44,303 bases of DNA from an uncultured Spirochaetaceae bacterium. Its GTDB lineage: Bacteria; Spirochaetota; Spirochaetia; Sphaerochaetales; Sphaerochaetaceae. The stretch covers positions 1-44,303 of the forward strand of contig CALXOH010000004.1 of assembly GCA_944389975.1 (NCBI GenBank), in the 5' to 3' direction. The notes under the pieces were generated by a model. The model saw nothing but the letters and a program-made list of their open reading frames with translations. It was not told the DNA's origin and ran no database searches. The position numbers and the translations under genes were made by a program. This document shows, piece after piece, positions 128 to 44,303 of the stretch (its first letter is position 1; each line of letters begins with the position of its first letter).

Positions 128-482
128 CATAATCCACGACATGAAGACTTCCGACGGGGAGAGTATGGAGAGTGAAGTACTGGGTGATATAATGAAATCG
201 ATCAAGGAGAGCAAGGAGATGGAGAGAAGGTACAAGAGCGACAGCCAGATGTGGATGGAGAGGGGAATTGCCAAGGGCAGGGAACAAGGTATGGCCCAAG
301 GTATGGAGAGAGGGATAGCCCAGGGTATGGAGAAGGGAATTGCCCAAGGTGTGGAGAAAGGAGTTGAGAAGAGCATAGAGATACTTCTGAGGAACGGGCT
401 TCTCTCTCCGGAAGAGATAGAGAGGAACTTCCATGTTCCACTTGAAGATGTGATGTCGATAAAGAACAGGCTTTCTGAATGA
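1..482 (+). CDS. Rpn-family recombination-promoting nuclease / PD-(D/E)XK transposase-like protein, C-terminal fragment (5' end off window)
   Basis: The open frame runs in from the window edge (first complete codon at position 3) and stops at 482. The visible part is the tail of an Rpn/PDDEXK_2-type protein: a segment reading RPLYISRFTDEEGFVTDAS, then a charged helical stretch, then a low-complexity tail of repeated G-M/I/V-x-x-G units (about residues 90-120) and a final helix with SPEEIERNF. The N-terminal PD-(D/E)XK nuclease core is not in the window. Known Rpn proteins (for example E. coli RpnA) are DNA endonucleases that stimulate RecA-independent recombination and usually occur in many diverging copies. 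A second copy lies inverted at the right end. The internal GTG/ATG codons near 75 are not needed as starts because the frame is open upstream. The family call comes from the repeat-rich tail and multicopy behaviour; nuclease activity cannot be judged. Confidence 0.72.
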   Translation, partial: PYGRGRPLYISRFTDEEGFVTDASVVRYEVNLSFEGECTISDIIHDMKTSDGESMESEVLGDIMKSIKESKEMERRYKSDSQMWMERGIAKGREQGMAQGMERGIAQGMEKGIAQGVEKGVEKSIEILLRNGLLSPEEIERNFHVPLEDVMSIKNRLSE

Positions 483-13630: not shown

Positions 13631-13740
13631 GAGATGAATTTCTCCCCCTGAGAGTGACAAATTTCTCCCTTTGATAAGTATAAATTTATCCCTCCAGCTA
13701 TACATTTTTCCTTGAATGATATAAACTTGACATATGAATG
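13631..13740. repeat. Imperfect 21-23-bp tandem repeats running into the DUF4143 start codon
   Basis: The core AATTTCTCCC (13637) recurs as AATTTCTCCC (13660) and AATTTATCCC (13683), exactly 23 bases apart each time. It then degrades to CATTTTTCCT (from 13703) and TAAACTTGACAT just before the ATG at 13734. Units share a TATA(A/C)A lead and a TGA(A/G)TGA-like end, so the start codon context itself looks like a repeat end. There is no ordinary Shine-Dalgarno sequence between the last repeat and the ATG. The rest of the 13403-13630 gap holds nothing I can assign. Confidence 0.65.
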
Positions 13741-15017
13741 AGAAACTTTATCTTCCCAGATTGATTGATAATGAAATTGAAGATCGGCTTCTTTGGAAAG
13801 GTGCAGTATGCGTTGAGGGTCCAAAGTGGTGTGGAAAAACTTGTTCGTGTACACAACACTCCAAAAGTTCTTTCTTCGTAGGCTCTCCTGAAGGTAACTT
13901 CAACAACCGTACTCTGGCAAAGGAAAACCCGATGCTTGCACTCTCTGGAAATCCACCTCACTTGATCGATGAATGGCAAGAGGTACCCGGGCTATGGGAC
14001 GCAGTGAGGATTGAAGTTGATAAAAGAGGGGGTAGCGGGTATTTCATCCTTACCGGTTCTTCTACGCCGAAAGCAAAGGGAATACTTCATAGCGGCACGG
14101 GGAGGATAACAAAACTCAAAATGAGGAGCATGAGCCTCTTTGAATCGAAAGAATCATCGGGAAGAGTATCTCTCCAAAGCCTATTTGATGGAACATTCTC
14201 TGATCAGATGACTGGAAACGTGGACATAATGGATGTTGCATTCTGGATTATCAGGGGCGGCTGGCCCGGAATGCTGGATTTCGGGGAAAAGGAAGCGATG
14301 CAGAATGCAAAAGATTACATCAGTAGCTTTCTTGAGGATGAACTTCCGCGCCTTGATGACGAAAGGACATACAGGGATGTACGCAAAGTTCGTTTCCTTC
14401 TTGAATCATTGGCACGAAATGAATCGACTACGGTAAAGATATCAAAACTTGCAAGCGACATCAGTTTTGCCACTGATATTTCCATCAAGGAAGAAACCGT
14501 CAACGAATACCTTGAAATACTGAAGCGGTGTTTCTTGGCGGAAGAACAAGAAGCGTTCTCATTCTCTGTCCGTTCGAAGACGAGATTGAAAAAAGCACCC
14601 AAAAGACACCTTGCTGATCCATCCCTTGCAGCCGGCCTTCTCTCGCTCAGCAGTAAAAAACTCATCAATGACCTTGAAACATTCGGTTTTCTATTCGAAG
14701 CCCTTGTCGAACGTGATCTGGACATATATGCAAGAACACTCGGAGGAACCCTCTTCCATTACCAAGATTATGGAAACAAGGAAATCGATGCCGTACTCGA
14801 ACTGGAAGACGGCAGATGGGGTGCATTTGAAATAAAACTCGGAACATCACAGATCGAAAAAGCTGCGGAGAACTTGTTGACAATAAATCAAAAGATCAGA
14901 GAAGACAACATCGATAACGCTCCCTCGTTCCTTGCCGTGATATCCGGACTGTCGAATGCTGCATACAAAAGAAAAGACGGGGTCTACGTACTCCCCATAT
15001 CATCTCTAAAGCCCTGA
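13734..15017 (+). CDS. AAA-type ATPase with C-terminal DUF4143 (archaeal-ATPase-like family)
   Basis: A 427-residue protein of the widespread AAA_14/DUF4143 family. Walker A is GPKWCGKT (near 30-37), Walker B HLIDEWQEVP (near 76-85) and sensor-like FILTGSS near 104. The DUF4143 region follows from about 190, containing YLEILKRCFLAEE and a nuclease-like tail with NKEIDAVLELEDGRWGAFEIKLG (E-I-D ... E-I-K, a PD-(D/E)XK-type pattern). The function of this family is not established; copies are often numerous and decay quickly. The start is preceded by tandem repeats instead of a clear ribosome-binding site. A broken relative lies 0.7 kb downstream on the other strand. Codon use looks like the neighbours'. 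Confidence 0.85.
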   Translation: MNEKLYLPRLIDNEIEDRLLWKGAVCVEGPKWCGKTCSCTQHSKSSFFVGSPEGNFNNRTLAKENPMLALSGNPPHLIDEWQEVPGLWDAVRIEVDKRGGSGYFILTGSSTPKAKGILHSGTGRITKLKMRSMSLFESKESSGRVSLQSLFDGTFSDQMTGNVDIMDVAFWIIRGGWPGMLDFGEKEAMQNAKDYISSFLEDELPRLDDERTYRDVRKVRFLLESLARNESTTVKISKLASDISFATDISIKEETVNEYLEILKRCFLAEEQEAFSFSVRSKTRLKKAPKRHLADPSLAAGLLSLSSKKLINDLETFGFLFEALVERDLDIYARTLGGTLFHYQDYGNKEIDAVLELEDGRWGAFEIKLGTSQIEKAAENLLTINQKIREDNIDNAPSFLAVISGLSNAAYKRKDGVYVLPISSLKP

Positions 15018-43845: not shown

Positions 43846-44303
43846 TTACCCTGAAAATCTGTTTTTTATCGACAGGACCTCATCAAGTGGAACATGGAAA
43901 TTTCTAGATATCTCCTCAGGGGAAAGCAACTCGTTTCTTAAAAGTATTTCCATACTTTTCTCAACTCCCTTCTCCATTCCTTGGGCTATACCTTTCTCCA
44001 TTCCTTGGGCTATCCCTTGTTCCCTGCCCTTGGCAATTCCCCTCTCCATCCACATCTGGCTGTCTCTCTTGTACCTTCTCTCCATCTCCTTGCTCTCCTT
44101 GATCGATTTCATTATATCACCCAGTACCTCACTCTCCATACTCTCCCCGTCGGAGGTCTTCATGTCGTGGATTATATCGCTGATTGTACACTCACCCTCG
44201 AATGAGAGGTTCACCTCGTACCGCACCACCGACGCATCCGTGACGAACCCCTCCTCGTCCGTGAACCTCGAGATGTATAATGGCCTTCCCCTCCCGTACG
44301 GGT
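43846..44303 (-). CDS. Rpn-family nuclease / transposase-like protein, C-terminal fragment (5' end off window)
   Basis: Second, inverted copy of the family seen at the left end; the reading frame is open to the window edge. It shares the first 127 bases exactly, then a few point changes up to about 280 bases, after which the Gly-rich tail differs in unit number (about eight residues shorter) and the terminal helix diverges (SPEEISRNFHVPLDEV). The N-terminal nuclease domain is outside the window. Follows selD convergently after 60 bases with no clear terminator. Confidence 0.72.
   Translation of the reverse strand, partial: PYGRGRPLYISRFTDEEGFVTDASVVRYEVNLSFEGECTISDIIHDMKTSDGESMESEVLGDIMKSIKESKEMERRYKRDSQMWMERGIAKGREQGIAQGMEKGIAQGMEKGVEKSMEILLRNELLSPEEISRNFHVPLDEVLSIKNRFSG
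44177..44303 (-). repeat. Terminal exact inverted repeat, right copy
   Basis: Exact reverse complement of positions 1-127; coding sequence of the right Rpn-family copy. Confidence 0.95.

Follow-up and report, generated by a model that had tools for sequence, protein, structure and literature searches.

A DUF4143-type ATPase gene of an uncultured Spirochaetaceae bacterium is preceded by an array of tandem 23-bp repeats, and arrays of the same form lie upstream of related genes in bacteria and archaea. The array sequence diversifies along with the encoded protein and, among close relatives, chiefly with the first residues of its recognition helix. From these sequence comparisons, we consider it probable that the arrays are operators, each bound by the protein of the gene behind it, and that the proteins thereby autoregulate, probably by repression. 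The gene lies in a stretch of 44,303 nucleotides (contig CALXOH010000004.1 of assembly GCA_944389975.1), which we call the window.

Repeat arrays upstream of DUF4143 genes

The cores AATTTCTCCC, AATTTCTCCC and AATTTATCCC occur in the window at 13637, 13660 and 13683, exactly 23 bases apart, as a sequence-only reading had described. Tandem Repeats Finder reports the array at 13637–13694 (period 23, 2.5 copies, score 65), and the upstream region matches itself at offset 23 with a score of 19, a value reached by 0 of 2,000 dinucleotide shuffles. The repeat is real and far from chance. Two decaying units had been placed behind these cores; a fourth unit is present at 13701 (9/12 matches, displaced to 20 bp), but the consensus core fits at 13724 and 13727 in only 3/12 and 4/12 positions, so neither a fifth unit nor the claim that the end of the last unit forms the start context is supported. 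The unit spacing of 23, 23 and 20 bp departs from a strict 23-bp period, which counts against an operator reading. The period had also been called close to two helical turns; 23 bp stands, and as this is about 2.2 turns the wording was loose. The upstream features are as follows.

13635..13657, + strand: repeat unit 1, core TGAATTTCTCCC, 11/12 against the unit consensus
13658..13680, + strand: repeat unit 2, core CAAATTTCTCCC, 11/12 against the unit consensus
13681..13700, + strand: repeat unit 3, core TAAATTTATCCC, 11/12 against the consensus; the next unit is only 20 bp on
13701..13719, + strand: degenerate repeat unit 4, core TACATTTTTCCT, 9/12 against the unit consensus
13717..13725, + strand: putative extended −10 element TGATATAAA, predicted from sequence

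Other tandem repeats lie within open reading frames near both ends of the window (255–362, 24/48-bp; 43949–44019, 12/24-bp).

The sequence-only reading had proposed a search for the same repeat upstream of orthologues, and most homologues scored carry an array. Of 34 close homologues, 24 have self-match scores of at least 17, with an offset of 23 in 20 cases and of 24 in the other 4; of 112 control regions, which were taken upstream of other genes in the same genome and five relatives in the genus, 1 does (Mann–Whitney p = 1.5e-15 for close homologues against controls, with loci treated as independent). The close homologues comprise 4 loci from the same genome, 29 from the same genus and 1 from the same class. 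The sole high-scoring control, the only one above 16, is a 32-bp direct repeat with a score of 26 before a reverse-complement open reading frame at 14799 (L100, genome G016), an alcohol-dehydrogenase-like gene; with a period like that of the L006 subfamily described below, it could be an orphan array. Another control gene, L104, itself resembles a DUF4143-type ATPase, and scores 14.

Of 86 loci taken from public genomes and viral contigs, 73 score at least 17, each of them at offset 23; counting lower scores too, 83 loci have exactly 23 bp as their best offset. The genome loci were the 80 best among 583 confirmed relatives, so this sample leans to close relatives. By record title, the listed loci come from spirochaetes, Clostridia, other Firmicutes, Bacteroidetes, Gardnerella and Verrucomicrobia, and from archaea (Methanomassiliicoccales and others). 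Four plasmid homologues from Collinsella and Bacteroides have 23-bp repeats as well. One locus with 51 bp upstream (L204) was left out of the 86; L225 (= L222) and L173 (= L054) were counted there and removed from a pooled set of 118 loci. In the pooled set, 106 loci have an array (score of at least 14), with a period of 23 in 102, 24 in 4 and 22 in none, a median of 3.4 copies (range, 1.6 to 10.9) and a median of 40 bp between array end and start codon.

The window's own genome has 22 DUF4143 loci, a set that includes fragments and the four close homologues mentioned above. Twelve of them score at least 17, at offsets of 22–23 or 31–33 and with repeats that are unlike one another by eye, and the weakest AT-rich cases may be chance. 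The L006 subfamily has its best offset at 32 or 33 in 27 of 30 loci, and only 14 of the 30 score at least 17. Only 4 of 29 phylum-wide loci picked by best DUF4143 score reach 17, so direct arrays mark some subfamilies and not the whole family. Scores below 17 were also found for 10 of the 34 close and 13 of the 86 public homologues, some of which perhaps reflect mis-set starts or truncation. An association of the arrays with tRNA genes was considered and rejected (tRNA within 400 bp upstream in 4 of 106 arrays versus 3 of 112 control genes).

In other subfamilies, DUF4143 genes frequently have gene-specific inverted repeats upstream of the start (L117, L118, L120, L122, L127–L129, L136 and L137). 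Nine of the 29 phylum-wide loci score at least 13 for inverted repeats; the 112 controls have a 95th percentile of 12 and a maximum of 15. Site symmetry may therefore differ by subfamily.

Repeat sequences vary from gene to gene, and a common anatomy emerges when 99 units are aligned by rotation: an (A/C)A(A/T) box at positions 2–4 and a core near CSGAAT at 9–14. With rotations fitted jointly, the alignment holds 8.99 bits of information, against 3.3–3.6 in ten column-shuffled controls. Copies within an array agree best at positions 2–4 and 8–13 (0.92–0.98) and least at 15–22 (0.78–0.85), a box-centred pattern that appears consistent with selection on the boxes. The units stand on the same strand at a fixed period upstream of the gene: at a threshold of at least 13/14 matches, 251 copies fall in array regions, 250 of them on the gene strand, and none in the genes or in the 300 bp downstream of the 99 genes. 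Five other copies all lie upstream of the array of one locus (L203), at 23-bp steps. Two units were searched for in the window's genome, that of locus L003 (up to 3 mismatches) and the window unit pair, and both were found only at their own arrays.

The encoded protein and its covariation with the array

The gene and the regions of its product, as predicted from the structure model and sequence motifs, are as follows.

13734..15017, + strand: DUF4143/AAA_14 ATPase, 427 amino acids, PADLOC PDC-S01
13734..14273, + strand: AAA+ ATPase core, residues ~1–180; Walker A G29–K35, Walker B LIDEWQ 77–82
14376..14558, + strand: winged-helix domain, residues 215–275, limits taken from the model; proposed array reader
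14487..14528, + strand: recognition helix region, residues 252–265; helix 253–265 in the model
14493..14495, + strand: codon of residue 254, which covaries with core base 10 of the repeat
14634..15014, + strand: PD-(D/E)XK nuclease-fold domain, residues ~301–427; D352, E366, K368

The protein matches the Pfam families DUF4143 (PF13635; 102.3 bits, gathering threshold 28.1) and AAA_14 (43.1 against 27). It also matches the PADLOC PDC-S01 model PDLC04790 over residues 6–425 (E = 1.5e-57, with no curated cut-off shown), as four other DUF4143 proteins tested match PDC-S01 models. Searches of PHROGs, of NCBIfam and, by sequence, of the PDB returned no match for it. The family had been described as multicopy and of unknown role, rightly so. 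The genome (1.95 Mb, 51 contigs) has 22 DUF4143 matches, 21 of them above the Pfam cut-off. The listing of the family as PDC-S01 makes it a candidate for phage defence. The nearest named homologue among the matches listed is from Candidatus Ornithospirochaeta (65%). A locus of another genome (L259, 5007–13104, G113) packs three L006-type DUF4143 genes into about 8 kb, two of them separated by a Fic-domain gene.

An AlphaFold model of the protein has a mean pLDDT of 90 and a pTM of 0.90. Residues 1–304 match the STAND-type ATPases SSO1545 (2fna, Z 14.7) and PABY2304 (2qen, Z 14.5) best, followed by NLR proteins and CED-4. As in these matches, an AAA+ core is followed by helical and winged-helix domains, and we read the model as placing a winged helix with recognition helix 253–265 within this region. 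The likeness to SSO1545 and PABY2304 in AAA+ plus winged-helix fold comes with an identity of 16–17%, and the aligned range stops before the C-terminal domain. Modelled alone (residues 285–427, pLDDT 89), the C-terminal domain adopts a restriction-endonuclease fold by structure comparison: the listed matches include McrBC chains (Z 9.4 and 9.0), EndoMS (8.5) and Can2 (8.2), with the TBP-interacting protein Tk-TIP26 in second rank (Z 9.3). Foldseek gave no match under E = 0.001 for the same residues (best, 1.6e-3). The catalytic D...(D/E)xK residues are kept among 30 homologues, D352 being invariant and E366 and K368 present in at least 90%, and we predict a PD-(D/E)XK nuclease fold.

Across 99 arrays (7 of the 106, with a period of 24 or a protein shorter than 390 amino acids, were left out), protein identity correlates modestly with unit similarity (Spearman 0.31, reached in 0 of 499 permutations). 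By region, the correlation is highest for residues 215–275 (0.33), with 0.30 for the nuclease part and 0.25 for the AAA part. Once overall identity is removed, columns 254, 404 and 252 rank at the top and the partial correlation is 0.12 for residues 215–275, 0.14 for 276–300, −0.03 for the AAA part and 0.05 for the nuclease part; none of 60 permutations reached the margin by which the winged-helix mean exceeds the rest.

Among 119 pairs of proteins at 70–90% identity, residue 254 with base 10 ranks first of 4,085 combinations (phi 0.73), followed by 348 with base 18 and 253 with base 8. The same residue at 254 goes with the same base 10 in 60 of 69 pairs, and a different residue with a different base in 43 of 50. 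In those 50 pairs, bases 9, 11 and 12 are unchanged in 43, 48 and 44, and base 8, which also shifts with residue 254, in 14. Fourteen of the 16 members of one cluster obey a code in which D at residue 254 goes with C (7/8), E with G (4/4) and N with T (3/4).

Homologue pairs are not independent; edge-disjoint contrasts were also drawn, from a tree for which the helix was masked. Where residue 254 differs, base 10 does so in 7 of 9 contrasts, and where the residue is the same, in 5 of 23; within those 9, bases 9 and 11 change 3 times each and base 12 twice. Under a looser distance limit, base 10 differs in 17 of 21 versus 8 of 30 contrasts and bases 9 and 11 in 13 of 21, and the lead of base 10 thus shrinks in the wider contrasts; the mean distance of pairs differing at 254 is 0.37, against 0.23 for the others. 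In the 55–70% identity band, 254 is still the best residue for base 10 but weak (0.33), and other pairs exceed it (residue 335 with base 9, 0.65). Columns outside the winged helix (404, 374 and 393) also rank high once overall identity is removed, so phylogeny still contributes. The code at residue 254 appears to be visible only among closer relatives: for 58 cluster representatives, the split of D/E against C/G is not significant (10:3 versus 6:3, p = 0.66). A further candidate, residue 275 with unit base 2 (among cluster representatives, W with 18 C and 11 A, and F or Y with 0 and 28), was dropped. Pairs differing at 275 rarely differ at base 2 (1 of 36 at 55–70% and 0 of 9 at 70–90% identity), so this signal follows a clade split.

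Promoter register, transfer and competing explanations

A strong −10 match is found in 84% of leaders and in 59% of shuffled ones. Among the 83 of 99 arrays that have such a match (those without were dropped), the last unit's core base 10 precedes the −10 box by 9 bp in 15 arrays and by 32 bp in another 15. The −10 lies at phase 8–10 of 23 in 41 of 83 arrays (shuffled mean 0.15, maximum 0.31 in 200 runs) and in 20 of 48 cluster representatives (shuffled maximum 0.36). The arrays thus keep a fixed register with the promoter as a tendency and not a rule, and 42 of the 83 lie outside the favoured phase. In the window, core base 10 is 29 bp from the −10 in the third unit and 9 bp in the displaced fourth (base 10 at 13711), 9 bp and 32 bp being the spacings most often seen in the family.

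A protein bound in the promoter spacer is expected to block polymerase. The last core falls inside the spacer, 8–11 bp before the −10, in 23 arrays, and the 9-bp class favours repression. In 22 of the 83 arrays, the last core lies 31–33 bp upstream of the −10, near or above the −35, and 13 of these 22 have TTGA in the −35 area; the 32-bp class is compatible with repression or activation.

Array and gene were transferred together in several comparisons. Among 11 homologue pairs with at least 78% DNA identity over the gene (leaving aside two duplicate records and two flank-only matches), nine have alignments that terminate no more than 4 bp from the stop codon, and eight of these nine alignments start at most 131 bp before the start codon. 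The start of the alignment is in or at the array region in 6 of these 8, at −13 in L177/L183 and at or inside the start codon in L168/L170. Exceptions are L151/L154, which have an upstream flank in common, and the orthologous pairs L178/L185 and L070/L071. The archaeal orthologues L178 and L185, 94% identical, differ by exactly one 23-bp unit, which we take as sequence evidence of unit gain or loss. Slippage, suggested earlier as a way of varying the promoter or leader, is thus indicated in one pair but is unlikely to be the purpose of the array, because copy agreement is concentrated in the two boxes.

In two Collinsella aerofaciens plasmids (L272, 3852–5294; L273, 3796–8751), natural exchange has put different array-plus-DUF4143 units downstream of one shared HTH gene. 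Across the region of this gene the plasmids are 95% identical; beyond it their arrays differ, and so do their DUF4143 proteins, which agree at 234 of 422 aligned positions. The common backbone resumes 34 bp past the stop codon in one plasmid and after further genes in the other. A Bacteroides plasmid used as a query matched its own record only. The ABC-transporter flank of the window gene is matched in all 40 genus genomes (its own included), in many at full length, and the right flank is not syntenic; a clean empty site was not found among the eleven orthologous loci inspected. In one genome (L256, 5115–6419, G015), another DUF4143 gene with another, 24-bp array sits beside this ABC-transporter gene in the opposite orientation.

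Under the autoregulation that we propose, one winged helix of an oligomerizing STAND-type AAA+ ATPase would contact each unit, and several protomers would consequently line up on the DNA. The bound protein may, with less certainty, cover the promoter and repress the gene; of the two frequent geometries, one would place the last unit between the −35 and the −10. Repression would keep a potentially toxic ATPase-nuclease low until saturation, a ligand or an invader brought about release. Because paralogues have their own unit sequences, many copies could coexist in one genome without cross-talk. Cooperative protein binding, which the sequence-only reading had thought the period to suit, fits well: the units share one strand and a near-invariant period, each has two conserved boxes, and the arrays show phase lock to the promoter and covary with the helix. 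These sequence patterns thus support it.

The same binding could instead serve activation. In this alternative, the protein would act on its own gene as MalT does, as a signal-switched STAND ATPase that oligomerizes on sites near the −35. We judge this unlikely yet worth weighing: the best PDB fold matches are of STAND type, the 32-bp class with its TTGA motifs suits it, and IniR, with an ATPase domain likened to that of SSO1545, binds its target promoter and induces it according to the available passages of PMC5760070, whereas the 23 arrays with a site inside the promoter spacer speak for a block. Somewhat more doubtful is a role beyond regulation, in which the array would be a self-label where the STAND ATPase-nuclease assembles and stays inactive on its own gene, the repeat–helix code separates paralogues and incoming relatives, and the same protein attacks DNA that carries or titrates its units.

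The congruent alignment ends near start and stop codons, together with a multicopy, widely transferred family whose proteins combine AAA+ and nuclease parts and have the MuB filament among their fold matches (Z 10.0), would also suit a single-gene mobile element, the array being an end that the ATPase-nuclease recognizes for cutting or transposition. This is improbable, as units do not recur in the 300 bp downstream of the 99 genes, elsewhere in the loci (except in the extension of one array) or as solitary copies of the two units tested in the window's genome; phase lock to the promoter and the missing clean empty site argue in the same direction. We give even less weight to the idea that another host protein reads the array, or that it acts in the transcript, with the gene's own protein not the binder. 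An HTH regulator gene does lie just upstream in the two Collinsella plasmids, but the arrays differ behind an HTH gene region that is 95% identical, the repeats covary with the recognition helix encoded by the gene that they precede, and the array form is kept across bacteria and archaea, for which no common host regulator is expected. Chance or neutral slippage in AT-rich DNA, to which the one-unit difference between archaeal orthologues might be credited, is refuted as chance by the prevalence data and is scarcely credible overall given the shuffles, the common offset in 83 of 86 homologues (genome loci being the best 80 of 583) and the box-centred agreement between copies.

Known systems and implications

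In the available passages of PMC12988326, PDC-S01 is the fourth most common defence across all prokaryotes and an ATPase fused to PD-(D/E)XK, with cross-domain transfer; the window protein has the same two parts and matches the PDC-S01 models. In a word search of that paper, 'promoter' does not occur and neither 'repeat' nor 'upstream' occurs in a relevant sense, and the PDC-S01 passages of PMC13356809 make no mention of promoter, repeat or upstream arrays. COG1373 is among the transferred genes in the passages available from PMC10782964. The literature searched, with bioRxiv preprints outside its scope, holds no description of arrays at DUF4143 or PDC-S01 genes, nor of the target and regulation of PDC-S01.

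By analogy, and going by the parts of the sources available, MalT or IniR may be the nearest precedents for STAND ATPases as regulators, and RptR for operator repeats. Plasmid iterons are tandem units, all on one strand and about 20 bp long, next to the gene for their winged-helix Rep reader, with system-specific unit sequences; in contrast, no origin or replication function is indicated here, the contigs are mostly chromosomal and the period is 23 or 32–33 bp. MalT has repeated sites near the promoter, a LuxR-type C-terminal domain and a regulon. The likeness lies in a STAND ATPase acting in transcription from such sites; unlike this activator of the E. coli maltose system (PMC10427625), the window protein combines a winged helix with a nuclease domain, and only its own gene is indicated for the two units tested. 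In the passages available from PMC12255303, RptR is a separate 9-kDa regulator of a defence island; its repeats are 9 bp long, with a conserved TAGCTA. The likeness is that a defence promoter carries three operator repeats; here, in contrast, the ATPase-nuclease itself would regulate, through 23-bp units whose sequences diverge from one gene to the next.

For each protein, its array supplies a candidate DNA ligand and with it a first direct approach to function, so that what PDC-S01 proteins bind and how their genes stay quiet becomes directly testable. The arrays also provide a residue-to-base prediction at residue 254 (C for D, G for E and T for N) and, presumably, orthogonal protein–array pairs. 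If the self-label reading were true, the family would constitute an iteron-keyed defence or competition system across bacteria and archaea. The array alone could help to recognize family members and their true start codons.
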